A stretch of 64,000 nt of DNA from Cladocopium goreaui (Eukaryota > Sar > Dinophyceae > Suessiales > Symbiodiniaceae). Below are positions 5,670-59,480 of this stretch, piece after piece (within the stretch, counting starts at the first letter, position 1; every line of letters begins with the position of its first letter). The DNA is taken from the NCBI GenBank assembly GCA_947184155.2, contig CAMXCT020006767.1, positions 124,001 to 188,000 on the forward strand, given 5' to 3'. The notes beneath the pieces were generated by a model, which had not been told where the DNA came from, made no database searches, and was given only the letters and a program-made list of their open reading frames with translations. A program made the translations under genes and the position numbers.

Positions 5670-5686
5670 CCATGAGTACCCCATGG
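5670..5686. repeat. Short palindrome, GGGGTAC family
   Basis: CCATGAGTACCCCATGG is an almost perfect palindrome, the reverse complement of the form found at 21197-21213 with one change. It sits in the spacer between the two unknown minus-strand genes. Apart from it, the 5324-5769 spacer shows nothing I can name. Confidence 0.7.
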
Positions 5687-12998: not shown

Positions 12999-14050
12999 TC
13001 ATCCACAATGTACTCAAATAAAACAAAATTTCATGCGTATTGGGCTCCAAACAAAATCAAATCAAATCCTCAGATTGAGTAACACTGTCATGACAACGCA
13101 GAAAGCACTCTTCACATGCTCATCCCAGTCACCTGATACACCTTCTCGTATCACACTTCACAACACCAACTGAGCTCAAGACCCAAGACGTGCCTAAGTT
13201 GTTTGCAAGAACCATGCACCTGACACCATCAGTTCCCAACCTTTGCACCTTGATCTACCTCAGTGTCCGAAGATGTCGAACCTGGCAATCTGCTGTCCAC
13301 CCTCAGGGAGTTCCAAGTTACAATCTTGCAGCAAGTTACCTACCGTCACTTTCTACTGCCGAAACGAAAAAATCCTACGTCTAGGAACGCTCCATCCATG
13401 CAAACATCTTCAGATACTCCAGCGTAGCCTTGCACTAGTGACCCTACGCTAGCAATACGTCACGCCATGACACAGACCCCTACCAGAATACTGCCAAGAC
13501 CACATGGACGCCTCCTACAGACGACGTACCTACACAAGGTAAAAAATAAAACTAGCTCTGACAGACTTCTCTGCCAATAGAAATCCAAAAACTCAACTCC
13601 TCCGTCCAAGTCACAAGTCCTGCCCAGGGCTGACTAACTCTGTATGTTCTCCTACAGGTACCGCTGTCGACAGCTTACTATGGATCCACTTCTGTCCAGC
13701 CTACCAAGAACAAACCCTGCCGAATCTTGCACAACTTGCAAACGAAGAGTCGTTCAAATAAAACAGTCCCACGATCCTCATGATCCCTAGAAATCTATAC
13801 ATCAAACAGGGTCCCAAAGTTACCTGAACCCAAACAGACTCAAACCAACTTCACACTCCCTAGTGACCTTATACTTTCAGACCATCACCTCTTGTGAAAC
13901 AGGTGCACCTTAGTACGAGCTCATCTCTGCCTCTGCGCATAGAACACGGAGCTCCAATATCCAAGATCCCAATCTCACCTTAGATGACGTCCTTAGCATC
14001 TTGTCACAAACAAGGGTCAGCGGAAGATGGTGTGGGTAGCCCTTTTCAGG

Positions 14051-14062
14051 GCTCCGCTACCA
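14051..14062 (-). other. Primer-binding site of the LTR element (tRNA-iMet type)
   Basis: TGGTAGCGGAGC on the minus strand, with no gap after the 5' LTR end ...TTTTTCACA. It is the same 12-mer as in the unrelated element at 2150-2161, so it implies the tRNA 3' end GCUCCGCUACCA in this organism. Confidence 0.85.
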
Positions 14063-15619
14063 TGTGAAAAACGTAAACCCAAGTACACCTCTCGTGTACC
14101 CAAATCGACGCTTTCATAAAATCACTACGCCAGACGCAAACACCTACTGTGGTTGCGACTCGCAGTTACTTACTTCTCTGCAATGTCAAATAAAGAACTT
14201 GTTCCACCCCGACTCCTAAGTGCACGTCAGACTCCTTCTTTTCTCTCCAGACGCCACACACAACGGAACAGGTCAACAAGAACCAGGGCAGGCACACGGC
14301 CACAGCCCACAAACAAAGAAAGGAAGCAAGATGTTCCAGTGTGGCTACTGTTTCAAGTGCCCTAGGTGACACTGCAGTTCAGTTCGCTTCGGAACACTTG
14401 ACACCACTCCCTTGAGCCGATGTCTCAACTGGGAAACTCGATTCCAGGTTTCCAATACACAACCTTCCCTCAAAGGTTGTTGAAACAATTCCAAACTGCT
14501 ATGATATACAAATCACCTAGTCACACAAACGTCAGAAACATTTCCAAAAGTTCTCAAGTCAAACTGGTTCTCATCCAAACGCAAGTAACCAGCTAGCCAG
14601 TGTTACTAGTCTCTACCAACCGTCTAGACTAGTCACACGGCTAGTTAAGAACGAAATGTTCCGCTCAAATTCCTATACAAAATCCTCTTGCAATACAGAA
14701 CAACATGGTAACCTCATGTTCCATCTCCAAAACAGTTCTCCACACAGAGATGTCTTCTCACAGTTCCAAACTGTCGAGGAGAGTAGAATGTTCTGCTTGA
14801 CTTCTCAGCTAATATCCAGTCATCAGCAGTCATAGCGCTAAAGTATTTCGCTCACCACAATAACCAAACGTCAGCAATAAGTCACAACGATAAAGATCAT
14901 AATGCAGCTCTCCAGATCAAGTATCCGGAGGTTGAATCAGATACGTAGGCATTGTCCTCACAATGCCGAAGTATCTCACATACTCAAAAGATCTGCTGGA
15001 CTTCTCAGCTAATATCCAGTCATCAGCAGTCATAGCGCTAAAGGATTTCGCTTCCTGCAATAACCAAACGTCAGCCAATAGTCACAGCTACAAAGGTCAC
15101 AAAATAGACTTCCAGATCAAATACCCAGAGATCACAGAAGATACGTAGGCATTGTCCTCACAATGCCGGAGTATCTCACGTACTCACAAGAAGTAGTCAA
15201 ACCGGCTTCACCAACATCTCAGATGCACGAAGCAATGACAAGAGTCGAAACGGATCATCCAAAACCATCTCAGCTAGATCCGTACTCCTCCAAGAGGTCA
15301 AAGAACTTCCGAGATCGATGGAATCATAGCATCCCGACTCAACTGCATAGCGAATGCTTCTGAAAGCATTCGTCCACTGTCATAAAGCAAAATAACGCTT
15401 CAAACTGTATTCAAAGGAGAATCAAGCTCCAAGTAGATCCACTTAGACTCACTGGTCGATGTCTCAAATCAGCTCAGGCAGCTCCTCATACCACAACGCA
15501 ATATTGAAGCTACTTATGTCTGATGCAGACACCTTCCCATAGTCCAGTTTCACCACTGAAGGCTTAATGAAAGTCAGGTCGCTCCAATGCCAAGTTGCAC
15601 CCTCAAGGGTCCAAACTTC
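14063..15619 (-). repeat. 5' LTR (1557 bp)
   Basis: Direct-repeat partner of 6503-8063. It contains the same 200-bp internal duplication (14799-15198) and hairpins (14948-14967, 15148-15167). In element orientation it starts with GAAGTTTGG directly after the CCACA target site. Confidence 0.9.
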
Positions 15620-15624
15620 TGTGG
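15620..15624. repeat. Target-site duplication, right copy
   Basis: TGTGG on the plus strand, matching 6498-6502. Confidence 0.9.
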
Positions 15625-16280
15625 AGTGGCCATCCCACGGGCATGTGGGAGTCTTCCAGGAGTCCGTTACCATTTTCCTCTATGATTGTACCCAACATTG
15701 GGACATCAATAGTTGCTTTGAGGCTGACTTGTGCACGTTTGCACTTCCATGTGTCAGGTGCTGAAAGGCCTCTGCCAGCCAACAGCTCGAGCGAAGGGAA
15801 TTGTGGTTGGTCATTCGCTGGTAACACCTCTTCTTTGATGACTAACTTTAGCCCGTGTAGTGGCTGGGGTTGCTCCTTTTGAGGGTCTTGAGGTGATTGA
15901 GATGCAGTGTCCTTGGGTGTTGTGTCTTCAAACCAGGTGGAAAGGACTGACTGGACTCCCATGGGACTTGCAGAACTTGCAGTTTTGATGCTTTCTCTGC
16001 GCAGGCTATGGTAGACGGGCGGAATCATCCATGCCGGCACAAAGACTGTGATAAACTGCACATTCCAAATGACCTGCAAATTCTGCGGCTTGACTTCAGG
16101 CGTGATACATCTTACCTGACCATCGATCACTCTGGGGTGTGATTCAGAGCGGTCGAAGGATGCTGTGACTTTCAAGCCTAGGTACAGTTCTCTAAACCAG
16201 TATTCCTTGAGCATCATAAAGGAAAGGTGAGGTGCCCTCACTTCCAATACGTGCGAGGCTGGCATTAGAAGAGTGACCAT
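15620..16280 (-). pseudogene. Unknown gene, 5' half, interrupted by LTR insertion
   Basis: N-terminal half of the gene whose 3' half is 6502-5770. The first ATG is at 16280, although the frame is open up to about 16350. The product begins hydrophobic/aromatic (SHVLEVRAPHLSFMMLKEYW), then has a strand-rich region with VIWNVQFITVFVPAW, a Gln/Pro/Ser linker and another globular stretch up to GWPLH at the insertion point. No conserved domain is recognised. It is transcribed divergently from the LINE-like ORF1 at 16829, with about 550 bp between the start codons. Loss of the LTR element would restore a 462-aa frame. Confidence 0.7.
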
Positions 16281-16318
16281 CCATTCAGCTAAGAATTCAA
16301 TGATTTTTTTTGTTTTTG

Positions 16319-16338
16319 CCCGTAGCCACTGGCTCAAG
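16319..16338 (+). other. Relic dinoflagellate spliced-leader sequence
   Basis: CCCGTAGCCACTGGCTCAAG matches the 22-nt dinoflagellate spliced leader (CCGTAGCCATTTTGGCTCAAG core) except that TTT is replaced by C. It follows a T-rich tract and lies about 490 bp upstream of ORF1 of the LINE-like element, on the same strand. Relic leaders mark DNA copies of trans-spliced mRNAs in dinoflagellates. This may therefore be the 5' end of the element or of an integrated cDNA. Confidence 0.65.
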
Positions 16339-16828
16339 GCTGTATCGGCTCAAACCCCGTGGGTACTGGGTAACCTAATTTTAACTCAAGGGGCAAACAT
16401 CCATCTTGGGTGATTTGCGTGAGTTAATTTTGGGGGCACCAGTAAAAAAGGGGCTAGGGTAGTACTGCCGTAGGAAGAGCACAAACGTGCCCGCCAACCT
16501 GTTTTGTTTGGTTGATAATTTTGAGAGGGGGGGGTTTATCTTAGTTTTGTTTATTTAAGATCTACCTTCTCGGTTTTGGCATACTGGCTTTGTGTCCATT
16601 GAACACACTGTTTTGAACCCCATTTGTTTCAGGACTCCTGGGGTACCCAGTGTAGTTCTTTTACTGGTCATCTTGTTGTACTGGTTGGCAAGGCTCACTG
16701 GGGTACTCAGTGTAGTCTTCTTGTTTAATTTCTGACTTTGTTATCGTCTTGTCTTGCCCAGTTTGCCCCACTTGCCTGCCTCTGCGTAGTCGCTGTACCC
16801 AGGGGTACTCTGGGTTATAGTTGACAAG
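16339..16828 (+). other. Leader region of the LINE-like element
   Basis: No ORF is supported here. It is G/T-rich in parts, with a run of eight G at 16526-16534 and three short palindromes near its 3' end. It forms most of the divergent spacer between ORF1 (plus) and the unknown minus-strand gene, so promoters for both could lie here, but I see no recognisable promoter motif. Confidence 0.4.
16638..16815. repeat. Three short palindromes of the GGGGTAC family
   Basis: CTGGGGTACCCAG (16638-16650), ACTGGGGTACTCAGT (16697-16711) and ACCCAGGGGTACTCTGGGT (16797-16815). The core GGGGTACYC stays constant while the flanking bases differ, yet the arms remain self-complementary in each case. Confidence 0.75.
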
Positions 16829-19585
16829 ATGAACTGTAACCCTCATGACACGATTGAACAGCATGCCATTGAACTGGTGTCAAGTCTTGGGAAAGAACAT
16901 CTCTTTGTTGCAAACTGCCCCAGTGACATTGATTCGAACAGATATTCAGGCACTGTGATCACTTATGAAGAAGCTTTTGATCACAGTGATACAGGAGTAG
17001 GCCTCTGTCTTTTGCTCCCCAAAGCTTATGTCCTTCAGAAATTCATAGACATATGCCTTAATAAAGATGTCTCTGTTCATTTTGTCTTCACTTGCTCAAG
17101 CAGTACCAGCGAATTTGAAGCTTCTGCATGGTTATACAACCTCCTTAATGACAAAGTTCAGCATGTCGGTTTCATGCAAAATCTTGGAGTTACCTTTTGC
17201 TCCGCAAATAATCAAGAGAAATATCTCATTGCATGCCAGGTTGAACCTTATGCTGAACACTGCCATGTTTCTTGGTCTCGCCCTTGCAGAACGCTGGAGT
17301 ATGTCTTTCCCAGAACTGTTGTTGAACGACACCAAACGATCAGTGAACTTCAGAGCCTTTCTGCAGTCAACTACATTGATTTCAGAAGACCTAATGGATG
17401 CCATCGCATATCAGATAAGATCGATGTGACCTCACTAACTGTCCAAATTGCCAATGATTGCCTGGCAGACATCGTGCTTGTTGAGAAGATCCTTCAGCCA
17501 ACTGTTGATGCCGCTTGGTCGCATGGACTTGCAGAGTGTCAGGTTAAGCACTTCTTTCCATGGAATGACTCTGAATTCCAAAAGCATTTTCCACATGGAA
17601 TCACTATGTCAGTATTGGATTTGAAGACGTTTCCAAACACTGTGCTTAATGAGATTCTTGTCCAATTAGCCAGCCTTAAAGTGAGGTACCATTTCATGAA
17701 TTACAGAAGGCTTGCCATTTTCGGACCGCCGTCACTGGTCATTAATCTTCACCTAGCCCTCCTTCCATTTGACATTCATCTACCGATTGGGCCTAAACAA
17801 GGTGCTTTCACTGTCCACGTGCTGCGATCTGAACCACATTGCACACAGACTGCCAATGATTATAATCATTTTCAAGTCAAATTTGGTAAGATTGGTTCAT
17901 TTCAGTATGCACCTGCACAGATTTTATGGGCTGAAATTCCCTCCTCAATGTGTAATGAAGACCAACTCGATCAGTCAAACCAATCATCTCTTGTACAATT
18001 ACTAAAACAAAAGGTGGGGGCTGTTAACTTCTCCATTCGTTGGTGTCAGGTTGACAGGTCGCAGCAAAAGTGTCTTTGTTTTGACATCGAGATTAAACAT
18101 GAAGACTCTCTCCCTCTTTCACTGGATTGTGACCTTGGCCAAGTTGTCATCCAGCACCAGTGCCCCTCTGCAGAAAATTTTCGTGCTGACGTGTCACTTA
18201 CTGAAGTCGAAACCAGACGGGATCACTGGAATAAAGTTATTGCTCAACAAATGATCCCTAAAGAGGGCAGAATTAGTCATCTTTCTTTTGAACCAAACAA
18301 GAAACAGTCAGCCAAAAGATACTATGAGTTGCGCACCACAGTCATTGACTCTATGCAGGACTTTACTAACATTATTGCCATTGCGTCCCAACCGCCGGCC
18401 TGGTTCTTCTCGCCTAAAGAGTTGCGTATGCCCTTGGTGGAATGCCTACAAAAAGTCAACTTTTGTGACAACTCTTTCATCCAAGAATCCTTTGTGATGA
18501 ATCCCGACATTGTTAAGATTGATCTACTTCATCACGAATTTATCAAGCATAGGGACCACCTGAAGTGGCTTTTTTATCATATCGTACTTGGCCCGGAACA
18601 GTGTTTCCATTTGAAATCCGTCCACCTTGAGCGTGATGAATGGAAGGTACGGTACTACGATGAATTGATCGTACGTACTTTTGAACCATCCTCAATTTTT
18701 ATCACACTCCCACCCGGAATTTCAATATCGCAGGTCATCGATAAAACGCAATGTTGTCACCTTCGAGAAGCCTATGCCTGTAGTGTACCATCACAGAAAA
18801 CCCCGGATGTTGGCACCACCCAGGCTGGATTGAAGGAGCAGTATACTGATGCCACACCGACTGCTCATTTTCCAAACGGCCATGGAATGAACAGCATTAA
18901 GAGGGTGAATTCCCACGGACATGCGAGTCCAACACCAACAAGTAATAGGCCTGCTTATCGCCCACCTTACAAACCCAGGCAGTTTAGAGGATCTCCCAAC
19001 ACACCTCCTGAGGGTGACATCGAAATGCAGCCTGCACCAACCAATAACAACAAACATCCAGAACCCCCGGTAATGCACCTTCAGGCAAGTACCGGCGAAC
19101 ACAGTGAGGATGTGCCCATGGAATGCGTTGCAACAGCTCTTGATCCAGTTGACGACGATACCCACAGCTCTGACAAAGAGTTGCAACAACATGATGATAC
19201 CCCCCATGGTCATAACTCCATCACCTCTGACAACAACCTTGCCATGACCAACCTCGATCAGAACCACCCTCTTGAACCTGAACAACATGCCCATGATGAC
19301 ATTACGAACAACCTCGGTCCCCCTAAGGAGAAACATGTGCACCACAACACAGGTACGCTCGCTAATCAGGAAGATGTCGCCAACGTGGGGCACTCACGGT
19401 TGTGTGACACTTCCCGATCTACTACCCAGACTCATTCTGTTTCCAAAACCACTGCACAACCCTCACTGCTTGACTGCCCCACTCAGTATAAGGATGCCAC
19501 CCACAGATCCACTCATACCCACCTTATGCCCCAGGCCACAGGATCAATCAACTTTCCTGCATGTACTGCCAATGACAACGTTTAA
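16829..19585 (+). CDS. ORF1 of LINE-like element, 918 aa, unknown
   Basis: Intact frame from ATG 16829, the first ATG after the leader. The first 650 residues have a globular, strand-rich composition with many Cys, His and aromatic residues. The last 250 residues are low-complexity, rich in His, Pro, Asn and Asp (many HGH, DDD and PP steps), typical of a disordered tail. I see no RNA-recognition motif, zinc knuckle or esterase motif of the usual LINE ORF1 types, so a nucleic-acid-binding role is only inferred from position. The stop TAA at 19583-19585 overlaps the start of ORF2 by 14 nt, which suggests coupled reinitiation or frameshifting. Confidence 0.8.
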   Translation: MNCNPHDTIEQHAIELVSSLGKEHLFVANCPSDIDSNRYSGTVITYEEAFDHSDTGVGLCLLLPKAYVLQKFIDICLNKDVSVHFVFTCSSSTSEFEASAWLYNLLNDKVQHVGFMQNLGVTFCSANNQEKYLIACQVEPYAEHCHVSWSRPCRTLEYVFPRTVVERHQTISELQSLSAVNYIDFRRPNGCHRISDKIDVTSLTVQIANDCLADIVLVEKILQPTVDAAWSHGLAECQVKHFFPWNDSEFQKHFPHGITMSVLDLKTFPNTVLNEILVQLASLKVRYHFMNYRRLAIFGPPSLVINLHLALLPFDIHLPIGPKQGAFTVHVLRSEPHCTQTANDYNHFQVKFGKIGSFQYAPAQILWAEIPSSMCNEDQLDQSNQSSLVQLLKQKVGAVNFSIRWCQVDRSQQKCLCFDIEIKHEDSLPLSLDCDLGQVVIQHQCPSAENFRADVSLTEVETRRDHWNKVIAQQMIPKEGRISHLSFEPNKKQSAKRYYELRTTVIDSMQDFTNIIAIASQPPAWFFSPKELRMPLVECLQKVNFCDNSFIQESFVMNPDIVKIDLLHHEFIKHRDHLKWLFYHIVLGPEQCFHLKSVHLERDEWKVRYYDELIVRTFEPSSIFITLPPGISISQVIDKTQCCHLREAYACSVPSQKTPDVGTTQAGLKEQYTDATPTAHFPNGHGMNSIKRVNSHGHASPTPTSNRPAYRPPYKPRQFRGSPNTPPEGDIEMQPAPTNNNKHPEPPVMHLQASTGEHSEDVPMECVATALDPVDDDTHSSDKELQQHDDTPHGHNSITSDNNLAMTNLDQNHPLEPEQHAHDDITNNLGPPKEKHVHHNTGTLANQEDVANVGHSRLCDTSRSTTQTHSVSKTTAQPSLLDCPTQYKDATHRSTHTHLMPQATGSINFPACTANDNV

Positions 19586-22500
19586 ACAACAGGACCATTC
19601 TAACAACCTTACCTCCAAAATTGGCCTTCCTACACAATCGAGCCGGCAGACCAGCAAGCAAACGAGCCGCAGCAAGGATGAACACAAGAGTGTACCTAAT
19701 CAACCACCCGAAACTATCCTGGACCTCTTAGCGCAAAAAGCCGCATACCAGCCGCTGAATGACAACGCTAACGCACATGTTTCTGGTGATGATGTGATCT
19801 TTATTAAAGCCTCACACAGCCCTATTGACAGCATTCTATGTAGCAGTGCGGAAAGCAGTAGTCTCCTTATTTCCAATAGAGAAATCATCACTGGATGGCC
19901 CAGCTCATTTTCCCATGCTGATTGTGACTATTTTTCCAAGCTTGCAACGTGTTATCTCATAAAATTCCCAAGTTACATGTGCTATGCGGTTACTGCACTT
20001 CGTGTCCTCACCCATGCACCTTGGAATGACAACATGTTTCATGGCCACATCAGAGAACTAGTCCTATGCGCTATCGGAAATGGATGGACATGGGCTGACC
20101 AGACTGCTACGGTGCAAGGAAGACGAGTAAGCATTGGAGAAGTCTGCGCTGCTTTTGCCAGCTACCTTAACGTTAATGCCTTTCCACCTGGGCAAGTTTC
20201 TGACCTTGATACCGCGATCATTGCGGCCTGTGATGACTTGTTTCCAGACCATTGCGAACTCTTCTTTGCGCAATTTCATGTGAATTGCCTTTCATGTAAC
20301 GCATCGGGCAAGGTTTCTGCCGCTCTTTTTGATACAATGTTGAGTATTAACCTGGAGAACGATACCATTGATCTTTCGCGAATGATTGCAGATCGGGCTC
20401 CGCGACTTGCACTTGACAGAGAGGATGTTGGTTTTTCTCACGCCAGTGACTGTCACAATCAGGACCAACAAAACAATGAAGAAATTGAAGGTTGTTTGAT
20501 TTTCACCCTCAAAATTACAAGCCCCATTGAGCAACTGCCAATTGCTACCAAGGCTTTACATCTCCTTGGACAGCTCTTCAATGTTCCCACCCTGAGTGCC
20601 AATCCTGTTTGTCAATCTTTCCTAGTCACGGGTATCATCATTGTTCAAGGAAAGTCGTCACATCATTTCCTTATCATTGAGCGATGGAACGAAGGACAGG
20701 TTCTGGTTCATGACAACCTCCGCGGCCATGTATGGATCTCGGTCGAACAACTGAAAGCCACCTCCTTTGTATGGGGTTTTGTCTTCCGTCGACATGATCA
20801 TCAGCCTTATTCCTTCCAACCGCCACAGTACAAAGCTATTGCACCTGCCACACTACAGTGTGCCAAGCAGCCTCATCGCTCCAAAAAACAAAAGTTAAAA
20901 CCCAAAAATATTCTTGGCATTAGTGCCAAACGATATCAGACCCCCAATCTTTCAAAGAAAAAAGTGGGAAATAACAGCACCCCGGATCAGTCAACTGAAG
21001 CACTAGATAGCAAACCAGTTGATCCCCTACCACCAAGCGAGAACCCTCATCCTGCCAATACCCCGAAACACACTTACCCTGCACACAGCGAGGTGGGTGA
21101 TCAACACGGGGTACTCGTGGTTGGTTACCCACCTGGAACCCAATCCACGTCTCCCCCAGTGCAAAATAAGCCGGCCGGCACTGATCATCCCAGCCACCAT
21201 GGGGTACCCATGGTTGGACTTGGACTGCCTTTTCCTCATGCTGGCGCACCCATTCCGCATGCTGATCAGAACAACGACATTGTGAGTAGTACGTCAGAAA
21301 TCCACTGTGGGGCACCCACTGTTGGTCTGACGGACACCCCTCAAAACGATAACGGTCCTTTATTCCATGCAGAACTTGGCAGTAAAGAGCTTGTTGATGT
21401 CCCTCATCCTCATGAACCTGAGGCCTTGACACCAGTCAATATTAACGCAAGTGCCCAGTGTCCAACGCTTGAACATGCACCAGCAGAGACTGTCCGGTCA
21501 CGTCATAATGATAATCACAACAACGTCAACCCATCCTGTAGCTATGCTGGAAGTCTCCGCCCTCCAGTCAGTGGTGAAAGTGAGGTTTCCCATAGTTCTT
21601 TTGCGAAGGAGAAAGATGCATCCCCTCCTAAAAGGGCTAAGTATTCCAAAGTTCACCCATATGCTATTATTAGCCTATTTGACGGTGTAGGCTCAGCTAT
21701 TCCGGCCATCACTAAAGCTATTGGATGTGCCCCGCGCATCATCGTTGTTGCAGAATGTGACCCCATCCTCAGACAACTCGTTGGTGAACAATTCGGTCTT
21801 CGCACTGATGGGGAATGGACCCAATCAAGCAAGGACACTTACACGCTTTATGCTGACGATGTGCGGCGACTTCTTCGTAACCAATGTCGAATACTTAAGG
21901 AAGCTTTTGCATTGGCTGGGCCACAGTGCCGCTGGTTTTTAATTGCTGGCTCGCCTTGCCAGGATCTTACCCCAGCCGGCCCTCTGAAAGGACTCCTTGG
22001 ACTTACTGGCCATTGCAGTTCCCTCTTCTACTATGTCCACGTAATCCTTTGGCTTGTGCAAATGAACTATCCTCTGGAGCACATCCGCTTTCTACTTGAG
22101 AATGCAGGTGCTATGCTTGACATCCATCGCAAAGCAATCCTACGTGCCCTTGGACTGAACCCTGATTCGACTCCCGATAGCCTCCGCGTTGACCCCAAGA
22201 ATACACATGGCATAAGGCGTAACAGATTTTACTTTCGCAACTACCAAGACGGTGTCAAAGTCCCCAAGACGGTTGTTCTGGAACCGAGTGACATAGAAGG
22301 GCCGTTAATAGACTTTAATGGTCATCCGATTCCTTATGGGCCACTCCTACGAGTTAGATCCGTCTTAGGACACAATGTGTTGCAGCTATCCTGGACTGCA
22401 TATCAACCAATTTCTCTTATTTGGGACTACCTTTTCTGGGGAGACAAAGCTCAATTTCAACTCAAAGCCAAAATGCATTCAAGCGATATCATTCCTGCCC

Positions 22501-24065
22501 TTGATTTCGAGACCTCTCTGCCACCACATTATCTGCGTGCGTGGAATCGATTCCTGCAGTCTCTGCGACAAAAGAATGTGAGCACCATTGATCGAGACCG
22601 ATTAGTCCGTGCTATCCTGCCCATTTTCCATCATCCCCACATCAAAGCACCCATGAGAATCTTGCTCTGTGAGGAGGTCGAAAAATTAGCGGGATTACAC
22701 AACCATTTTGACCGAGTACAGGCTCACCGCTCGCTGCTCACTGAGTTCACAGTTAGAAACTATTGCGGTAATAGCTTTCATCCAGAATATATTCAGGCAG
22801 CCGTAGGACACCCTGAACGGCTACGCGACTGGCTCACTGAGCCTACTGAAACAGCAACCAAGCATGCATGGTCCGGAGTCGTTCACCCAAAACAAGCTCG
22901 AGCCCAATACCAAGCCCTGCGTGAACAAGTACAAACCTTGGCACGAGAACAACGTATCCGTGATTTCTCTTCCAAGCAAGTTGGTCTCGACCCAATGCCG
23001 GAACTTCCAATCCATGCACTCGAAGGTCTCTTGACCCCAGTCATGCCAACTGTACTTCCTAAGCAACTGTTGCCTGCTAACCGTAAGATTCACCCTGCTG
23101 ACTTAGGCGTCATGGACAGCAGACCACCATCGCAGCTTTCGCCAACTGCTATTCAACTCCTCCAGGAACAACACATGCAAAGCATCCTTGTCGGTATGAG
23201 GTTTTTCGGAGCAGGCATTGGAAGAACAGAAGATTTGCTGCAGTTCTTTTTTGGCCATAATTATGATGGTGTAGTGGAACGCCATTGCCCACAGGCCAAA
23301 GAGTGGATCTCCAATAAACTCAAATCCGCTGGACAGTGCACCTCCACCATGGCACAGCTGTTGCTTTGGTTGTATTCACTATTACATCGCGAGCAAGTCT
23401 CTGTTCATTTTGTTCATATTGCTGACTGGGAAGATCAAGCACATGTTGCCACTTTCGGTGATGCCCCTGCCAAATGGACAGTCTATTGTGTTCAATTTCC
23501 GCGCTCGCGTACTTTTCACCTTGACACAGCGGCGTGGAATTGTCATACCCGAGTTGACATCCCATGGCAGCAACTGCCCCAACCTCTTGTGTTCACGGCT
23601 GCACCCATCCCGTTCCGCTGCACCAACCCCAACTGCATCTGGTTTGCTGTCCCCTATGGACCCAAAGGACAATATTTAATTTGTCATCGATTCATTGGCA
23701 CATTCCTCTACGACAAGTGCATTGTGTGTTTCCTGTCTCGTTTTATCGAACAAGCCTCGTGCAATGTACATACAACAGCTAGTTCTTATCCTGAACTACA
23801 CGGGTGCATGTTCATAGACAATGAAGGTAATGTTGCCGTCGCTGCTGCGCACGACTGGAGGCTTGATGACACTGCAGGGTACCAAACATGTCTTATCAAA
23901 GCATCGATTGACAACCGTGTCTTCAAGTACCCAGAGCATATTGACAACCTTCCACATATCAACCCCATTGGAAAAATCAGTCAGGAACTTGCATGCCACT
24001 GGAATACGGACGATGCCTCCCCGGTTTTTGCTTATTTTATTTGTTCCCTTATTGAGTGTCAGTAG
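19572..24065 (+). CDS. ORF2: USP-like protease, DNMT3-like C5 methyltransferase, unknown C-terminus, 1497 aa
   Basis: Start chosen at ATG 19572, inside the end of ORF1; the frame is open further upstream but that part is shadow of ORF1. Residues about 125-405 resemble ubiquitin-specific peptidases (family C19): Cys box YMCYAVTAL with Cys137, a zinc-ribbon-like CLSC step followed by an LSINL stretch, and a His box SSHHFLIIERW (His364/365) followed by HDN (Asp381). Residues 410-690 form a Pro/His/Asn-rich linker with HGVPMVGL-like repeats. Residues about 695-1090 are a complete DNMT: SLFDGVGSA (motif I, Asp704), GSPCQDL (motif IV, catalytic Cys796), LLENAGAM (motif VI, Glu843), RNRFYF (motif VIII) and GNSFHPEYI (motif X). 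SLFDG and SPCxDL point to the DNMT3 type. It would methylate cytosine in DNA using SAM. Residues 1090-1497 are Cys/His/Trp-rich and unknown. Confidence 0.85.
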   Translation: MTTFKQQDHSNNLTSKIGLPTQSSRQTSKQTSRSKDEHKSVPNQPPETILDLLAQKAAYQPLNDNANAHVSGDDVIFIKASHSPIDSILCSSAESSSLLISNREIITGWPSSFSHADCDYFSKLATCYLIKFPSYMCYAVTALRVLTHAPWNDNMFHGHIRELVLCAIGNGWTWADQTATVQGRRVSIGEVCAAFASYLNVNAFPPGQVSDLDTAIIAACDDLFPDHCELFFAQFHVNCLSCNASGKVSAALFDTMLSINLENDTIDLSRMIADRAPRLALDREDVGFSHASDCHNQDQQNNEEIEGCLIFTLKITSPIEQLPIATKALHLLGQLFNVPTLSANPVCQSFLVTGIIIVQGKSSHHFLIIERWNEGQVLVHDNLRGHVWISVEQLKATSFVWGFVFRRHDHQPYSFQPPQYKAIAPATLQCAKQPHRSKKQKLKPKNILGISAKRYQTPNLSKKKVGNNSTPDQSTEALDSKPVDPLPPSENPHPANTPKHTYPAHSEVGDQHGVLVVGYPPGTQSTSPPVQNKPAGTDHPSHHGVPMVGLGLPFPHAGAPIPHADQNNDIVSSTSEIHCGAPTVGLTDTPQNDNGPLFHAELGSKELVDVPHPHEPEALTPVNINASAQCPTLEHAPAETVRSRHNDNHNNVNPSCSYAGSLRPPVSGESEVSHSSFAKEKDASPPKRAKYSKVHPYAIISLFDGVGSAIPAITKAIGCAPRIIVVAECDPILRQLVGEQFGLRTDGEWTQSSKDTYTLYADDVRRLLRNQCRILKEAFALAGPQCRWFLIAGSPCQDLTPAGPLKGLLGLTGHCSSLFYYVHVILWLVQMNYPLEHIRFLLENAGAMLDIHRKAILRALGLNPDSTPDSLRVDPKNTHGIRRNRFYFRNYQDGVKVPKTVVLEPSDIEGPLIDFNGHPIPYGPLLRVRSVLGHNVLQLSWTAYQPISLIWDYLFWGDKAQFQLKAKMHSSDIIPALDFETSLPPHYLRAWNRFLQSLRQKNVSTIDRDRLVRAILPIFHHPHIKAPMRILLCEEVEKLAGLHNHFDRVQAHRSLLTEFTVRNYCGNSFHPEYIQAAVGHPERLRDWLTEPTETATKHAWSGVVHPKQARAQYQALREQVQTLAREQRIRDFSSKQVGLDPMPELPIHALEGLLTPVMPTVLPKQLLPANRKIHPADLGVMDSRPPSQLSPTAIQLLQEQHMQSILVGMRFFGAGIGRTEDLLQFFFGHNYDGVVERHCPQAKEWISNKLKSAGQCTSTMAQLLLWLYSLLHREQVSVHFVHIADWEDQAHVATFGDAPAKWTVYCVQFPRSRTFHLDTAAWNCHTRVDIPWQQLPQPLVFTAAPIPFRCTNPNCIWFAVPYGPKGQYLICHRFIGTFLYDKCIVCFLSRFIEQASCNVHTTASSYPELHGCMFIDNEGNVAVAAAHDWRLDDTAGYQTCLIKASIDNRVFKYPEHIDNLPHINPIGKISQELACHWNTDDASPVFAYFICSLIECQ
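21105..21319. repeat. Three GGGGTAC-family palindromes within ORF2
   Basis: CACGGGGTACTCGTG (21105-21119), CCATGGGGTACCCATGG (21197-21213) and GTGGGGCACCCAC (21307-21319). They encode the repeated HGV-V-G peptides of the disordered linker. Spacing is about 92-110 bp. Arms differ between copies but are self-complementary. Confidence 0.7.
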
Positions 24066-24070
24066 GAACC

Positions 24071-25153
24071 ATGCAGCGCCTCGGGACAGTTGCGAAACCT
24101 CTCCTGCTCGAGTTTCGCAACGCTTGGTCCCGGCAGATCCGAGCGTTGTATTCACTTCAGTTTATGACCAAATGTCCGAAAAGCTTACACTGCTTGCAGT
24201 CACTCTCGTTCTTGCCGCATGTACTCCAAATCCCCGCACCGTGGCCAATATTAGATATCCAAACTGTGGCTAATAAGTGTGGCATCCGCAGCGAATGTTT
24301 TACTCACACGAGACAACTACTTGCACAAGCACTAGCCAACTCTTCTGAGTTTAGCCTCCTTTGTGCCGAAGTCCTCAAATATCGTCTAGAAAAGAAGCAA
24401 GATTGCTGCACTGCCCTTAAACAGTTAACCACATGGAATGTCTCAGGTTGGAGAACGTTGCAATGGACTAACCCTAAGACGCAAGCCATCCTCCGCCGAG
24501 CTCGGAATGGTATTGTCTGCCTTCAAGAAACCAGATGGACGGCGAGTACTGCTACAAATTTTCTCCAAACCTACCCAGGTTTTAATATTGCGCACTCTCC
24601 ATCAATCGCAACCGAGAACGGAGGTCTGTCGGGAGGAGTCGCCATATTGATTCCATGCTCCTTTAGACTCCTTCAAGAAATTGTCATCCTGCCTGGTAAA
24701 CTCCTTGCCGCACAAGTCCAGACAAGAACCGACTGCTTTTGGGTGATTTCGGCCTATTGTCATCCCAGCAGCGCAAAAGAAGACTGTGAAACGCTTGCCA
24801 GATGGCTATATGATCATCAGGACCTACCTGACCCGTTCTTCATTGTCGGAGACTTTAATCATGGTCATCACCTCTCTCTTGACGCATGGCACCGCATATT
24901 AAGTTGTGCCCAGGGCGACGACATCGTCAAAGATGAACCTACCTTCTGGGGCCCAAATGGCTCGTCAGCAATCGATAAAGTTATCCTTCCGACCGAATAC
25001 ATGAATCGAGGACTAATTCAATATCAGGTTTTCTATGATCATCTTTTCGAGTCTGCTGGACATGCATGCATATCCGTCCAATTGCGCCATCGGCCGCCCG
25101 TTTCCAGTAGCCCAGACCTGCCCCTACATATGACTATACTAGCTGGTGGTTAG
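24071..25153 (+). CDS. ORF3: LINE apurinic-type endonuclease, 360 aa
   Basis: Endonuclease/exonuclease/phosphatase fold that nicks target DNA to prime reverse transcription in non-LTR elements. Visible active-site motifs, numbered from ATG 24071: TTWNVSGW (Asn123), LQETRW (Glu153), VGDFNHG (Asp261, Asn263), SSAIDKV (Asp302) and YDHL (His324). All expected catalytic residues are present, so the domain looks intact. The first 110 residues are unassigned and Cys-containing. The ATG follows the ORF2 stop by 5 nt; a GTG at 24056 would overlap it. In related elements a reverse transcriptase continues in the same ORF; here a stop occurs at 25153 and nothing RT-like follows. Confidence 0.85.
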   Translation: MQRLGTVAKPLLLEFRNAWSRQIRALYSLQFMTKCPKSLHCLQSLSFLPHVLQIPAPWPILDIQTVANKCGIRSECFTHTRQLLAQALANSSEFSLLCAEVLKYRLEKKQDCCTALKQLTTWNVSGWRTLQWTNPKTQAILRRARNGIVCLQETRWTASTATNFLQTYPGFNIAHSPSIATENGGLSGGVAILIPCSFRLLQEIVILPGKLLAAQVQTRTDCFWVISAYCHPSSAKEDCETLARWLYDHQDLPDPFFIVGDFNHGHHLSLDAWHRILSCAQGDDIVKDEPTFWGPNGSSAIDKVILPTEYMNRGLIQYQVFYDHLFESAGHACISVQLRHRPPVSSSPDLPLHMTILAGG

Positions 25154-25329
25154 CTTTGTGCTTTTGTGCCTGCTATTTTTTTTGGATTATTTTGATCACC
25201 CACACATCTAATGCTTCTACTCCCTCACTACAGCCTCTTCATAAGTCGGAAGTTAGACTTCAGAAAGTCGGAAGTTAGAGTTAAGAAGTTAGACAAAAAA
25301 ACAAATTCCCAGCACTTCCAAAAGTGACG

Positions 25330-25560
25330 GATTAAGATAAAGAAAGGTTTCTCTTTAACTAATTAAGGAATGTTTCCTTACAAAAAGGTTCCTTAAATAA
25401 CACAACCTTCCTTATTTAAGGAAAAACGTTTAATTAAGTTTTTCTGTAATGAAGCAATGGCAATGTTTTCCCTTAATTAGGGAAACAACATGTCCTCAAG
25501 AAAAGGTTTTTAAGCGAGGTTTCCTTAAACAACGAGGGTTTCCTTAATTAACAGCTTTTG
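25330..25560. repeat. Cluster of TTCCTTAA / TTAAGGAA motifs
   Basis: About seven copies of TTCCTTAA or its complement, in both orientations within 230 bp, often extended as AATTAAGGAA or TTTCCTTAATTAA. They can pair as many alternative hairpins. The cluster lies 200 bp after the truncated end of the LINE-like element. No other such cluster was seen in the window. Confidence 0.7.
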
Positions 25561-26243
25561 GAGCTCCTGGGACCTGGTCATTTTTGGGAGTGCCGGATTG
25601 TACCCAGCGGTGGCGGGTATCTGTTTGCTTCAAATGTTTCAACATTGATCAGAATTCATGATGTATTTTGGCCCAAAAACTTTCAAACGGTTTGAGCCTG
25701 TTCTGTGACAGAAAAGGTTTTCAACAAAAAATGCAACTCAAAAAAAATGTTACGCAACGCTTGTGTGTTTCTAACATGTTTTGAAAACAAAGTTGACATA
25801 GAAATTGTGGAGAACGTGTCATGCGTTTTTTTTTACATAAACGTACACTGATAGGCATCATATTCAGTGAAGAACTTGCTGGCATTTTTTTTGCTAGACT
25901 TGAAATGCATTTATCTTCTGAGAGAGGGGGGGGCAGGGCGTTCCCAAAAAGCAACGATATTTCTTCAATGGGAATTCCAGGATCCTACAATGGATGTACT
26001 GTACCATATAAGGCCATATTTTGGAGGGATATCCCCTTACATAACCCTAATATTACCAAACCTTTTTAAGCCTTTGTTGTTGTAAAATGGTCAGGGCTGG
26101 CAAATTACACCCAACCCATGTGTTTTAATAGAAAAACACCGGCTTAAAATATTTTATTGCTGGTGTCAAAAATTGCGCCCTATCAGTGTCATGAGACTAC
26201 GACTACAACGACGACTACCACTACGCCTCAGCCTCAGTCAAAT
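25561..26243. other. No gene seen
   Basis: AT-rich spacer with homopolymer runs (T9 near 25826, G8 near 25926). Open frames here are short and have no protein-like features. Confidence 0.5.
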
Positions 26244-26500
26244 GATGCCTTAATGGTGTCATGATGATGCCTTTATGGTGTCAAAGAAGTGATGCCTTAA
26301 TGGTGTCATAATGATGCCTTACTGGTGTCAAAAAAGTGATGCCTCAATGGTGTCACAATGATGCCTTTATGGTGTCAAAGAAGTGATGCCCTAGTGGTGT
26401 CACAACATTAAAGGCGCCGTGATGGTGCCTAAAATTGATGCCGAGATGGTATCAGTGAAGGCGCCGTGATGGTGCCTAAAATTGATGCCGAGATGGTGTC
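26244..26500. repeat. Array 1 of 17-bp quasi-palindrome (GATGCC...GGTGTC orientation)
   Basis: Eleven units of the type GATGCCnnnnTGGTGTC, plus the variant GGCGCCGTGATGGTGCC at two positions, spaced about 20-27 bp apart. Arms can pair with G:T wobbles, and several variants show compensating changes (GGCGCC with GGTGCC; GATGCC with GGTATC). Confidence 0.85.
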
Positions 26501-26785
26501 AGTGAAGGTGCTGGTGCTCAATGTTGCCCATAGCCAGGGCCTCAATCGCAGGGATGATGTCAGGATGAGGGCATTTCCACAAACGATCATGTATTGATAT
26601 AATTTTTGATGGAAAGATCAAGACAATATATTTCCAGATTTTTTGGAACCTTAAAGTAAACAAATATACCGTATTATCAGGGGGGTCAATTCAGCTTACA
26701 AGAGTGTTTCAGTGCACACATCTCCATTCATCCATCCACCAAGATGACATCCGAAATCCATGTCATATTTTTTGCATAGTTCACA

Positions 26786-26973
26786 AACACCATCGCAGCA
26801 TCATTAAATGGGACGCCATCACAGCGTCCTCAGCAACTAGGACACCATCACGGCATCCTCATTAAATGAGACACCATCACGGCATCTTCATTAGATAGGA
26901 CACCATCGCGGCATCCTCATTACATGAGACACCATCACGGCATCTTCACAAAATGGTACGCCATCACGACATC
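26786..26973. repeat. Array 2 of the 17-bp quasi-palindrome (reverse orientation)
   Basis: Seven units of GACACCATCACGGCATC type at about 27-30 bp spacing, including GACGCCATCACAGCGTC near 26812 and TACGCCATCACGACATC at 26957. Orientation is opposite to array 1. Confidence 0.85.
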
Positions 26974-28292
26974 TTTCCAACCTTTGAACTGGCACTGAGT
27001 CTGGGACCCCGCCTGAACTTCGCGAAGATGACTGAGCTTTGTTCCTCGGTGGAATGCAGCATGGCGATGGGGAATTCATTGAAAATAACATGGTGTGAGT
27101 CAATGAGATCCTGTATAACTCAAATGTACACTGGACGGCTCTTTTTTTTGACTCTGGCGCGACCCGCATCTGCTTGGGCCACGGAGCAATTTCAGTTCAG
27201 GGATGATTGATATGATATGGGCTATATGGACATGTCTTTTTGAGTACATAACATTACATAACTTGATATCCCTCACAATGACTCTGAAGCAAGAATCATG
27301 AGCATGATGGTACTACAGTGTATTATCATTCACCCCAAACTCAGCTGAAGGGTTTGAAAGATGTTGACGAAAACCAAGTGGGTATGGCTCAAAATATTGA
27401 ATCTGACACATCCATTCCCTAGGACATTCAATCTTTTTGATGATGATTGCAAACTATGACATTTCAAACTGCTAAACATCAATCTCTCCAGACTAGACTT
27501 GTCAAGCAGGTTTGAACCGGAACGTGTTGGAACTCAATCAATTGTAAAACTGGCTTTATTTCGTTATGATGCCGTGTCAACAAATGGAATTAAGTACATA
27601 GGATGCTTTGCTCATATTTTTCCTTAAATTTCAAACCTGCTTGACATAAAAACTGGTACACGCTGCTCGGCCACCATCAGATGTTGCAAAATGTTGCAAA
27701 CAAAAAAATAGAATCTTCCAGAAGTGACAAGGAATATATTGGAGGATAACATGAACAAGCAATGAGTTAATTTCAGCTCAAACTGTTTGCAACACCTGAT
27801 GGCAGCTACAGCTCCTGTGCGCTGGCTACAGCTTCTGTGCGTTGCCTGCCATGATCTGCCATGATGTCCTATGATGGGGTGTTTTTTGAAAAGTGTGTGT
27901 GTGTGTGCGTGCGTGTGTGTGTGTGTGGTGTGTGTGTGTGTGTCTGTCTGTCTTTGTGTAGATTTCGTTGTTGTTCTGCAGTGTAGTTTGCTTTTACATG
28001 CGGCTGCCGGCGTCTAACCGAACCTGCTTCTCAGCTGGTTGTATTTTCGCTCCCATTTCTTTCTTTCGATACTTTCTTCTCCCATTGCTTCTTTCAGTGC
28101 CTGGAACGAAGCTGAGTGTTGAGATGATCATCGTTTTGAGAAAGTGCTTAGTGGACTGCTAGACTGAGCATGACCTAGTCAACAAAAAACAGCCGCAACA
28201 TTGTTGGATGGTGTGGATTCAGAATTAAACAGAATAGTTCGCACATTGGCTATGGATCAGACTGATCAGCCCCAAAACAGATGGTTGCCTAC
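26974..28292. other. No gene seen; GT microsatellite at 27892-27946
   Basis: AT-rich spacer. A (GT)n tract with a few interruptions occupies 27892-27946. No recognisable coding or RNA gene. Confidence 0.5.
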
Positions 28293-28460
28293 TCAAACTG
28301 ATTTTGATCCAAACCCATGTAGCAAGCAGGCCTCGTTGCGGCGCTTTAACTCTCGCCCTTCTTCTCTGGCCTTCTCTGCTTCTGCTTCGGCCTGGTCCCG
28401 TTCTTTTTGCATCTTCTTCAGCTTTACGAGCAGGTTCATCGCGACGATGTTCACCGCCAT
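28293..28460 (-). CDS. Small charged helical ORF, 55 aa
   Basis: Minus-strand frame from ATG 28460 to TGA 28293. The product is strongly amphipathic: MAVNIVAMNLLVKLKKMQKE, then Glu/Ala/Lys/Arg-rich helix (AEAEKAREEGRELKRRN). It could be a short coiled-coil protein or the last exon of the Gln/Pro-rich gene upstream on the same strand. Support is only composition; chance is possible. Confidence 0.3.
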   Translation of the reverse strand: MAVNIVAMNLLVKLKKMQKERDQAEAEAEKAREEGRELKRRNEACLLHGFGSKSV

Positions 28461-28500
28461 TTTTTTCCCTCGTAAGCTCCTGGCATCTCAGAAAGTTGTA

Positions 28501-28847
28501 GACAGCATCACAGCATCTATTACAAAAAAACTAGACACCATCACGGCATCTATAAGGGAAAAAAATCTAGACACCATCACGGCATCTATAAAAACAAGAA
28601 CTCTAGACACCATCACGGCATCCATTACAAAAAAACTAGACACCATCACGGCATCTATAAGGGAAAGAAATCTAGACACCATCACGGCATCTATTAAAAA
28701 AAGAAATCTAGACACCATCGCGGCATCTATTACTAAAAAAACTAGACACAATCATGGCACCCCAAAAAAAGAAATCTAGACACCATCATGGCATCTATCA
28801 AAGTTTCTAGACACCATCACGGCATCTATAGACACCATCACGGCATC
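28501..28847. repeat. Array 3 of the 17-bp quasi-palindrome
   Basis: Eleven units, mostly exactly GACACCATCACGGCATC, separated by 17-24 bp AT-rich spacers that often contain CTATAA or TCTAGA. The array overlaps the end of the Gln/Pro-rich frame and supplies its last 20 codons. Confidence 0.9.
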
Positions 28848-30635
28848 TCTCAACCCCACTCCCCCAACCCAACACTCCTTAGTCTGAGCCATCATGTCGG
28901 ACCACTTCATCCCTTCTATCCTTTCTTTGTATTTTCTCTTTGCTGGCCTTTTGTAGTTCTGCTTTCTCTTCTGTCCATGACCTTTTCCTTTCTTTCCACT
29001 CCCTTTTCCTTTCTTTCCACTCCATTTTCCTTTCTGCCCACCTCCCTTTTCTTCTTCCTCCTCTTCCTCTTCATCTTCTGGCGCTTCTGGGGTCCCTTCT
29101 TTATCATCTTCATTTTCATGATCTTCCTCTTTTGCTTCCTCCTTTGGCAGAGGGAGTTCTGCCATTGCCTTGGCTACCAGCTTTTCCAGCTCTGCCTGCA
29201 CTGGGCTTTTGGGCAGAGTCTTTCGGGGCTTGCTGCTGCTTGAGGCTTTGCTGGTGCCGGAGAGCAGCGGTTGCTCCTGCTGGGGCGGTGCCTCCATTGG
29301 AGGGGGCTGTTGTTGCTGCTGCTGGTGCTGCATCTGTGGCGGGTGCTGCTGGTGCTGCCTCTGTGGCGGGGGCTCCTGCTGGGGCGGTGCCTCCATTGGA
29401 GGGGGCTGTTGTTGCTGCTGCTGGTGCTGCATCTGTGGCGGGTGCTGCTGGTGCTGCCTCTGTGGCGGGGGCTGCTGCTGGTGCTGCCTCTGTGGTGGGG
29501 GCTGCTGCTGTTGTTGCTGCTGCAACATCTGATGATGCAGCTGTTGCTGCTGCATCATCAGCTGCTGTTGCATCATCAGCCGCTGCTGCTGCTGCTGCAG
29601 CATCGCTGGCTGCTGCTGCTGCAGCATCGCTGGCTGCTGGTGTTGCTGCATCGCTGGCTGGATTGGCCGTGCAGGCCATGGGGGCTGATGCTGCTCTGTC
29701 AGGCGTGGGACGCTCATGGGGGGGTGTGGCGGCTGATGCCAGGCTGGGGGTGGCGGCCCGGCAGCCTGCTGTGGTGGCCCGGCAGGCTTCTGCTGCTGCT
29801 GCATCGGTGCAGCCTGCTGCTTTGGCGGGGCTGGGGGTGGCGGCCCGCCGGGCTTCTGCTGCTGCTGCATCGGTGCAGCCTGCTGCTTCTGCTGCTGCTG
29901 TGGCTGATTTGGCGGACCTGGGGGTGGCGACCCGCCATGCTTGTGCTTTGCAGGCTGCGGTGGCCCGGCGGGCTTCTGCTGCTGCTGCATGGGTGCAGCC
30001 TGCTGCTTTGGCGGGGCTGGGGGTGGCGGCCCGCCGGGCTTCTGCTGCTGCTGCATCGGTGCAGCCTGCTGCTTCTGCTGCTGCTGTGGCTGATTTGGCG
30101 GACCTGGGGGTGGCGACCCGCCATGCTTGTGCTTTGCAGGCTGCGGTGGCCCGGCGGGCTTCTGCTGCTGCTGCATGGGTGCAGCCTGCTGCTTCTGCTG
30201 CTGCTGTGGCTGATTTGGCAGAGCTGAGGGTGGCGGCCCGCCGTGCTTTGCAGCCCGCGGTGGCCCGGCGGGCTTCTGCTGCTGCTGCATCGGTGCAGCC
30301 TGCTGCTTCTGCTGTTGCTGCTTTGGCGGCGTCACCGGCTGCTGCTGTTTCGGCGGTGTCACCGGTTGCTGCTTCCCCAGCATGCGTGGGGCGCTAGGTT
30401 CCGTGGGCATCTTCTTTGGGGCTATGGCCGGTATGGCTTTTTGTTTTGCCTCATGGGGTGGGGCCTTTGGCTTCTCCTTCGGCCGGGCTTCCTCTTTCAG
30501 TGGGGCTTGTGGCTCTTTTGGCTCCTCCTTCGGCCGGGCTTCTGGTTTCTCCTTCTGTCCGGAGTCTGGCTCCTCCTTCTTTGGGGCTTTTGTTGTAGAT
30601 CTGGAATTCAAGGTAGGTAAGACGAAGATTACCAT
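28776..30635 (-). CDS. Gln/Pro-rich low-complexity protein, 5' end replaced
   Basis: Minus-strand open frame of 619 codons. Order from the N-terminus: Lys/Glu/Pro-rich segment (about 30580-30380); Gln/Pro/Gly-rich tandem repeats of 62 aa (186-bp DNA period, e.g. units at 29911 and 30097); poly-Gln; a second repeat block of 33 aa (99-bp period near 29280-29480); an acidic Glu run; and a Lys/Gly-rich basic end (GKKGKGSGKKGKG). The first 15 codons are antisense to copia pol, so the true N-terminus was lost at a junction near 30595. The last codons come from the palindrome array. The product is probably disordered. No family is recognised, and it could be a real nuclear protein or a long repeat-driven frame. 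Confidence 0.4.
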   Translation of the reverse strand: MVIFVLPTLNSRSTTKAPKKEEPDSGQKEKPEARPKEEPKEPQAPLKEEARPKEKPKAPPHEAKQKAIPAIAPKKMPTEPSAPRMLGKQQPVTPPKQQQPVTPPKQQQQKQQAAPMQQQQKPAGPPRAAKHGGPPPSALPNQPQQQQKQQAAPMQQQQKPAGPPQPAKHKHGGSPPPGPPNQPQQQQKQQAAPMQQQQKPGGPPPPAPPKQQAAPMQQQQKPAGPPQPAKHKHGGSPPPGPPNQPQQQQKQQAAPMQQQQKPGGPPPPAPPKQQAAPMQQQQKPAGPPQQAAGPPPPAWHQPPHPPMSVPRLTEQHQPPWPARPIQPAMQQHQQPAMLQQQQPAMLQQQQQRLMMQQQLMMQQQQLHHQMLQQQQQQQPPPQRQHQQQPPPQRQHQQHPPQMQHQQQQQQPPPMEAPPQQEPPPQRQHQQHPPQMQHQQQQQQPPPMEAPPQQEQPLLSGTSKASSSSKPRKTLPKSPVQAELEKLVAKAMAELPLPKEEAKEEDHENEDDKEGTPEAPEDEEEEEEEEKGGGQKGKWSGKKGKGSGKKGKGHGQKRKQNYKRPAKRKYKERIEGMKWSDMMAQTKECWVGGVGLRDAVMVSIDAVMVSRNFDRCHDGV

Positions 30636-33600: not shown

Positions 33601-34011
33601 TTAGTGCTGGTGTACGTCGACGACTTACTCGTCGCGGCTGAAAGTCCGCAAGAAGGTGAATCGTTTTTGCAACAGTTGCAGAAGATTTGGCGAATAAAAC
33701 TTACTGGAAGGATTCCAGCGCTTGAAGATTTAGCCGATAGAGCTATGTTCCAGCAACCGGCAAACTATTTCTCTGATGCTGCGCTGCAAGAACATTGGAG
33801 GGACCTTGACTTCCCCAGCAGGAAGCTTAGGCGTCGTCCCACTCAAGTTGATCTTGCCGAATTTAAAGCCAGAAAAGCTGATTTGCGGCGAACCGCTGCA
33901 GCACAAGAGCAACTTACTCCAGTCTCCTTCGCCCTCGAGAATAGCTGGACTGAAACCGTACAAGACGACAAAACTTTTTACCACAATAATACCGTGCTCC
34001 GTATGACGTAG
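30598..34011 (+). pseudogene. Ty1/copia pol: integrase and reverse transcriptase, RNase H lost
   Basis: Open plus-strand frame without internal stops. Gag and protease are missing; sequence begins in the post-protease segment (PLNVISTYALLETGWKTVLG). An acidic linker with repeated ETTDSxDDxMSCC follows (31290-31360). The integrase has a zinc motif ending CDDC (near 31790), then Asp in SLAADF (about 31870), Asp in VATDNEA (32040) and Glu in KGIERAV (about 32150), the D,D-E triad. Reverse transcriptase starts near SRWVLTQK (33175) and has the catalytic YVDD at 33613-33624. After LTGRIP (33715) the RNase H domain is absent and an unrelated charged 90-aa tail runs to the stop at 34011. The frame being open suggests recent loss or domestication, but 5' and 3' truncation make transposition impossible. 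Confidence 0.85.
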
Positions 34012-59165: not shown

Positions 59166-59480
59166 CCTCCTCCGCACCACCAGCACCAGCAGCACCAGCA
59201 GCACCAGCACGAGCAGCAGCAGCAGCAGCAGCACCAGCATCAGCATCAGCATCAGCATAGCATCAGCATCAGAATCACCATCAGCATCAGCATCATCATC
59301 ATCATCGTCGTCGTCGTCATCATCGTCATCATCGTCATCATCGTCATCATCGTCATCATCGTCATCATCGTCATCATCGTCATCATCGTCATCATCGTCA
59401 TCATCGTCATCGTCGTCATCATCATCATCATCATCATCAGCCTCGTCGTCGTCACCGTCATCATCCTCATCATCCTCATC
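59166..59480. repeat. CAGCAC / ATCATCGTC trinucleotide tracts
   Basis: CAG/CAC and CAT trimers (59180-59270), then a (CATCATCGT)n block (59290-59480). A continuous transition from the preceding 12-bp array. Confidence 0.9.

Follow-up and report, generated by a model that had tools for sequence, protein, structure and literature searches.

Organization of the element

A 64,000-nucleotide stretch of the Cladocopium goreaui genome (GenBank assembly GCA_947184155.2, contig CAMXCT020006767.1, positions 124,001 to 188,000; hereafter the window, numbered from its own first letter) contains on its + strand an element that resembles a long interspersed nuclear element (LINE), in which a predicted ubiquitin-specific peptidase (USP)-like domain and a DNMT3-like DNA methyltransferase (DNMT) are encoded within a single open reading frame (ORF). 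A 5' untranslated stretch (16620..16828) with three copies of a GGGGTACYC palindrome-like repeat (16640, 16700 and 16802) precedes ORF1 (16829..19585; 918 amino acids, aa), the N-terminal part of a polyprotein. ORF2 (19572..24065, +) runs without interruption from the ATG at 19572 to the TAG at 24065, and its 1497 aa comprise the USP-like domain (residues 85–425, 19824..20846), a fast-evolving linker (20859..21611), the methyltransferase (residues 684–1085, 21621..22826), and a conserved C-terminal region with Cys pairs (residues 1190–1497, 23139..24062). ORF3 (24071..25153, +; 360 aa) codes for an exonuclease/endonuclease/phosphatase (EEP) endonuclease (PF03372, E = 1.8e-10, residues 121–306), and its stop lies 54 residues past the Pfam match.

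A conserved USP-like domain

A first-pass annotation of this DNA, made from the letters alone, had placed a USP-like protease domain ahead of the methyltransferase in ORF2, and an AlphaFold2 (AF2) model of the domain (pLDDT 64.3, pTM 0.64) bears this out. The model is predicted to adopt the palm-thumb-fingers fold of USPs. In a Foldseek comparison with the PDB, which spans all folds, the best 50 of 94 matches at E ≤ 0.001 are all USP-fold entries (top E = 8.9e-8); the 50 VIA rows are likewise all USP-fold entries, VIA showing USPs only and so excluding no other family. Pan2 (4czw, 4xr7) is among the Foldseek matches, and coronavirus polyproteins appear among the weaker matches in BFVD (ranks 16, 18, 19 and 22; E 1.9e-3 to 3.4e-2). 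The annotation had named a non-papain-like fold as grounds for abandoning its proposal; a USP fold was predicted instead, though the surroundings of C137 are modelled too poorly to show an active site. Taken as a prediction, a USP-like fold fused to the methyltransferase is highly probable.

The Cys box, CxxC, LSINL, His box and HDN motifs described in the annotation are all present in one frame. C137 (19980..19982), the putative nucleophile, sits within PSYMCYAVTALRVL, and CLSC (residues 239–242), LSINL (from residue 257), SSHHF (362–366) and HDN (380–382) follow in order. A Cys-box profile was built from three USP sequences (two viral USPs and one PDB USP15). Its 12-residue core scores highest at C137 across ORF2 (23 versus 14 for the next site) and in 31/31 rows of the alignment described below, a score equalled in 4/2000 shuffles of the domain; the catalytic Cys of USPs lies at the start of a helix, and the model has a predicted helix running from model residue 63. 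The putative zinc ribbon consists of C239-x-x-C242 (20286..20297) and H290-x-x-x-C294 (20439..20453), the second pair being HxxxC and not CxxC, which departs from the annotation. The candidate catalytic His and Asp/Asn lie downstream of the Cys, in the order seen in USPs. H364-H365 (20661..20666) holds the putative catalytic His, assigned to H365 by the register of the viral USP His box; D381-N382 (20712..20717) holds the putative third residue, and D381 is 16 residues beyond H365, the same spacing as in a viral USP (H204 to D220).

A protein search with ORF2 residues 60–460 recovered 34 homologous clusters, all with E below 1e-60 and with 1243 stated member sequences, which are all of source 'ena' and come from contigs of many different lengths. 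All 34 homologues contain [MV]CYA and 31 contain HHF; the three exceptions are presumably P0026, P0033 and P0034, whose ORF2 match ends at residues 276, 327 and 235. These three truncated sequences and the near-identical P0001 were omitted from alignment A3, which has 31 rows (the window piece and 30/34 homologues). C137, C239, C242, H290, C294, H364, H365 and D381 are invariant in 31/31 rows, so that the loss of Cys137 or His364/365 among homologues, which the annotation had also held to be damaging, is not observed. N382 is identical in the 30/30 rows that have a residue there, and overall 105/356 columns are invariant while 251/356 vary. Of the 34 homologues, 21 hold both [MV]CYA and the methyltransferase motif SPCQ. 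Sequence comparison thus supports the fusion as a property of the whole family and not of one copy. Among the window copy and 18/34 homologues, median pairwise identity is 58.7% for the USP-like domain, 74.9% for the methyltransferase, 45.7% for the C-terminal region and 19.9% for the linker. Because conserved blocks flank so divergent a linker, selection appears to act on the USP-like domain at the protein level. No relatives were confirmed in a viral contig collection (15 pattern matches; 3 by EEP) or in a collection of prokaryote genome contigs (54 pattern matches).

The domain shares its predicted fold, Cys-box core, zinc-ribbon-like ligands, and His/Asp order and spacing with USPs of family C19 (USP1, USP7, USP28 and giant-virus USPs), but differs in having no Pfam UCH match, no Asn at Cys-5, an HxxxC pair, and a place inside a transposon polyprotein. 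It gave no hhalign match to a USP profile made of two viral sequences, which is too shallow, and in NCBIfam a peptidase-ABC transporter model matched it weakly, well short of the cut-off (E = 0.035). The domain is named USP-fold or USP-like, and not a C19 member, because neither UCH nor a USP sequence profile matched. From the residues retained, catalytic competence seems likely, with less assurance than the fold itself.

The DNMT3-like methyltransferase

The methyltransferase carries, in order, SLFDGVG, SPCQ, ENA, RNRF and GNSFHP, all invariant or nearly so, which we take to be C5-methyltransferase motifs I, IV, VI, VIII and X. A family profile (window and 18 homologues) matches the DNA methyltransferase 4onj (E = 0.0025), presumably NtDRM, a plant DNMT3-class enzyme. 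With the window methyltransferase alone, 29/30 weak phmmer matches in the PDB at E ≤ 5 are to DNMT3A/B/C (best E = 0.047), and Pfam DNA_methylase falls below cut-off. The domain can fairly be called a DNMT3/DRM-like C5-cytosine methyltransferase, its class being assigned by sequence matches and not by phylogeny. Whereas these single-sequence matches go to DNMT3, the main text of PMC5890265 calls LINE DNMTs an orphan lineage in its phylogeny.

ORF1 and ORF2 as one polyprotein

Residues of both ORF1 and ORF2 occur within one protein in 25/34 homologues (up to 2435 residues), an arrangement that the first-pass annotation missed, and the junction is uninterrupted in the 8/8 homologues inspected. 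Since the relatives' junctions are unbroken, the window copy appears to be disrupted by a frame change at ~19572–19585, where ORF1 and ORF2 overlap (19572..19585). The annotated ORF2 therefore stands as an open frame of 1497 aa and not as a separate gene: the relatives' frame runs on from ORF1 with no start at 19572, and the ATG there is probably not a natural start. Programmed frameshifting at the overlap is not favoured, as no break is present at this point in the relatives, one of which is 99% identical to the window copy over ORF2; these are database gene models and not fully reliable, the first 101 residues of P0001 following another frame. The relatives' first protein would thus consist of a conserved N-terminal region, the USP-fold domain, the DNMT3-like methyltransferase and a conserved C-terminal region, with long variable linkers between them, and is presumably followed by a second ORF for the EEP endonuclease.

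The remaining segments are less readily classified. ORF1 has ~640 well-conserved residues followed by a variable linker, and gave no family match above cut-off; its AF2 model (pLDDT 42.9, pTM 0.30) is too poor for use. The conserved part (16829–18768) has no assigned fold, and two beta-alpha-beta-beta-alpha stretches of the poor model, which hint at RRM-like domains, are not counted as a result. The C-terminal region of ORF2 contains the Cys pairs CTNPNC and CIVC and has no family match. NCBIfam at E ≤ 0.1 matched neither ORF1, the methyltransferase nor the C-terminus, and hhalign among the ORF1, USP, methyltransferase and C-terminal segments found no internal homology beyond built-in overlaps. 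No spliced-leader relic was found, and an Rfam scan of the window gave no match.

Element class and known relatives

The closest published resemblance is to SymbioLINE-Dnmt (de Mendoza et al. 2018, PMC5890265), Symbiodinium retrotransposons described in the main text of that paper as having a DNMT ORF upstream of an EEP-containing ORF, with many intronless copies and a divergent DNMT under purifying selection. The first-pass annotation was correct that DNMT retrotransposons had already been reported. The element shares with SymbioLINE-Dnmt its LINE-like character and the order of DNMT ORF and EEP ORF, but has in addition a USP-fold domain, which precedes the DNMT within one protein; protease, peptidase and ubiquitin have zero mentions in the main text of PMC5890265. 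A second difference is that no reverse transcriptase follows the EEP in the window copy. The longest frame in 25100–28200 is 129 aa, these frames not having been scanned with reverse transcriptase profiles, and no [FY]xDD-type motif occurs in frames of ≥30 aa within 14000–30000 outside ORF2. Past the EEP domain, 25153–28200 holds no reverse transcriptase-like frame. The likely retroelement status of the window copy, and with it the annotation's assignment, rests on its EEP ORF, on the size of the family and on the parallel in print, and not on a reverse transcriptase, none having been seen downstream. Because of this the copy is called LINE-like and is not filed as a SymbioLINE-Dnmt member; it appears to be a frame-shifted element of the SymbioLINE-Dnmt kind. 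CpG depletion is reported for SymbioLINE-Dnmt in the main text of PMC5890265; observed/expected CpG here is 0.62 in ORF1 and ORF2 versus 0.64 and 0.68 in the flanks, which is uninformative.

Other mobile elements offer partial parallels. NeSL-1-type non-LTR elements carry a Ulp1-like cysteine protease, a ubiquitin-like-protease-type domain in a non-LTR element, but this has the Ulp1 (C48) fold, not the USP fold, and is not known to be accompanied by a DNMT. SymbioDIRS-Dnmt3 and KnitGypsy-Dnmt3 are retroelements with a DNMT3-type enzyme, as here, but the main text of PMC5890265 places the DNMT within Pol and the elements among DIRS or Gypsy, not LINE. In Polinton-type polymerases, an OTU-type deubiquitinase domain (vOTU) probably takes part, in the excerpted text of PMC12721341, in releasing the terminal protein by cleavage; there, too, a deubiquitinase-type domain is embedded in the polyprotein of a mobile element, but an OTU fold is combined with a DNA polymerase instead of a USP fold with a DNMT.

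Possible roles of the USP-like domain

DNMT-bearing retroelements pose a known puzzle, in that a transposon carries the kind of enzyme used to silence it. The conserved domain, if its modelled fold is correct, adds a second host-facing enzyme-type domain to the polyprotein of a retroelement type known for its methylating part. We propose that the USP-fold domain would be an active (iso)peptidase with the triad C137/H365/D381, and that its zinc-ribbon 'fingers' would grip ubiquitin or a ubiquitin-like protein. Acting in cis on the protein-RNA particle of the element itself, it would strip off these tags, and the polyprotein and its methyltransferase could thereby persist until they can act at the site of insertion. 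On balance we lean towards reading the domain as a divergent USP-fold (iso)peptidase by which a ubiquitin or ubiquitin-like tag is taken off the element's own protein or ribonucleoprotein, and deconjugation as the main role of the domain is a functional proposal that falls a little short of an even chance. Two points favour cis deconjugation: zinc ligands of the finger type have been retained, and there is no downstream product to be freed, since the EEP has an ORF to itself. A more tentative extension is that the polyprotein serves this retrotransposon family as an epigenetic tool in two parts, an active ubiquitin or ubiquitin-like remover and a DNA methyltransferase: it would clear host tags from the particle, or else from proteins of host chromatin, and in the same step methylate the new copy or its target.

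Several observations weigh against an active USP-type enzyme. The model is poor around C137, and the TM-scores of the fold matches are low. Pfam UCH (PF00443) matched none of 19 members at E ≤ 0.1, and the sole Pfam hint for the domain is C39, not C19. With the full 23-residue Cys box, C137 ranks second (9.0) behind residue 304 (9.7), and the ungapped His-box profile is unremarkable, ranking fourth in ORF2 with 1162/2000 shuffles as good and scoring best at the H365 register in 3/5 rows. USPs are expected to have an oxyanion-hole Asn at Cys-5, upstream of the catalytic Cys; F132 occupies this position in 31/31 rows, and another residue could serve in place of the Asn. Its absence, the lack of a UCH match, and the presence of Pan2 among the fold matches would suit a catalytically dead, Pan2-like scaffold that binds protein or ubiquitin. 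However, identity of the Cys, His and Asp in 31/31 rows, in an alignment in which most columns vary, is unexpected for a scaffold, and this alternative is unlikely. Less likely again is that the resemblance to USPs is local only, the domain being a papain-like peptidase of another kind or a zinc-binding fold with no relation to them. The low TM-scores, the poor model around C137 and the C39 hint are compatible with this, but every one of the best 50 of 94 matches in the all-fold PDB search is USP-fold, and the Cys-box core, the H-to-D spacing of 16 and the motif order agree with USPs.

The main rival to tag removal is self-processing: the domain would be a protease, similar to papain-like viral proteases, whose cuts release N-terminal, methyltransferase and C-terminal products from the polyprotein. 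The domain does lie in a long polyprotein between fast-evolving linkers, and both the coronavirus polyproteins among the weaker BFVD matches and the vOTU of Polinton-type polymerases in the excerpted text of PMC12721341 are consistent with self-processing. Inspection of the linkers by eye, without a systematic search, however, revealed nothing resembling a cleavage site, and the linker motif GVxxVG may reflect a constraint on the nucleotide sequence instead; the EEP enzyme is already on its own ORF, and the kept zinc-type ligands suggest ubiquitin-like substrates. Self-processing is thus doubtful as the principal role, if somewhat less so than a dead scaffold. These functional alternatives are not mutually exclusive, as one protease may do both. 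The frame change between ORF1 and ORF2 and the lack of a visible downstream reverse transcriptase might suggest that the fusion is a pseudogene or an assembly accident of the window copy, but the domain recurs in 34 clusters on contigs of many lengths, 21 of them with both Cys box and SPCQ; this explanation is already refuted for the family and carries hardly any weight. The USP-fold domain may also bear on an earlier result: in the main text of PMC5890265, a LINE DNMT produced no DNA methylation in yeast, an outcome called inconclusive there, and methylation could depend on domains beyond the DNMT itself.

A palindrome-like repeat in the element

Seven copies of a palindrome-like repeat with the core GGGG(T/C)AC(C/T)C are present on the + strand of the element and none on the - strand. 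In addition to the three in the 5' untranslated region, one copy is in the ORF1 linker (19387) and three are in the linker between the USP-like domain and the methyltransferase (21108, 21201 and 21309). In 500 dinucleotide shuffles of 16501–25153 the mean is 0.008 copies and the maximum 1, a post hoc comparison in that the pattern was derived from the same sequence. The relatives' proteins contain GVxxVG in 19/34 (39 occurrences versus 0.4 expected by shuffling) and an xGCSRM-like motif in 15/34 (25 occurrences versus 0.0 expected); the latter, judged from proteins in the relatives, appears to come from a different reading frame of the repeat, such as the one used at window position 19387. Motifs like those encoded by the repeat thus persist among the relatives, which suggests a nucleic-acid-level signal, possibly in RNA.

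Considered as hairpins, the repeat arms covary, with 89.3% of cells paired versus 76.0% when shuffled and 7 cells changed on both sides versus 2.3 (0/500 shuffles as high in each case); two other covariation measures are unexceptional (64/500 and 111/500 shuffles). The minimum-energy fold of 16620–16840 (z = -3.03) argues against local hairpins, as the repeat copies pair with one another or elsewhere. A looser form of the pattern occurs outside the element at 5682 (-, 5 outer pairs) and at 32312 and 32484 (+, 1 outer pair each).

Other features of the window

A long frame at 30214–34011 encodes a Copia-type reverse transcriptase (RVT_2, E = 7.7e-17) and belongs to a separate element. Two arrays, at 7236–7635 and 14792–15191, each contain ~2 copies of 200-bp consensus units that look near-identical, and a 12-bp tandem repeat of ~69 copies with 93% matches extends over 58348–59171.
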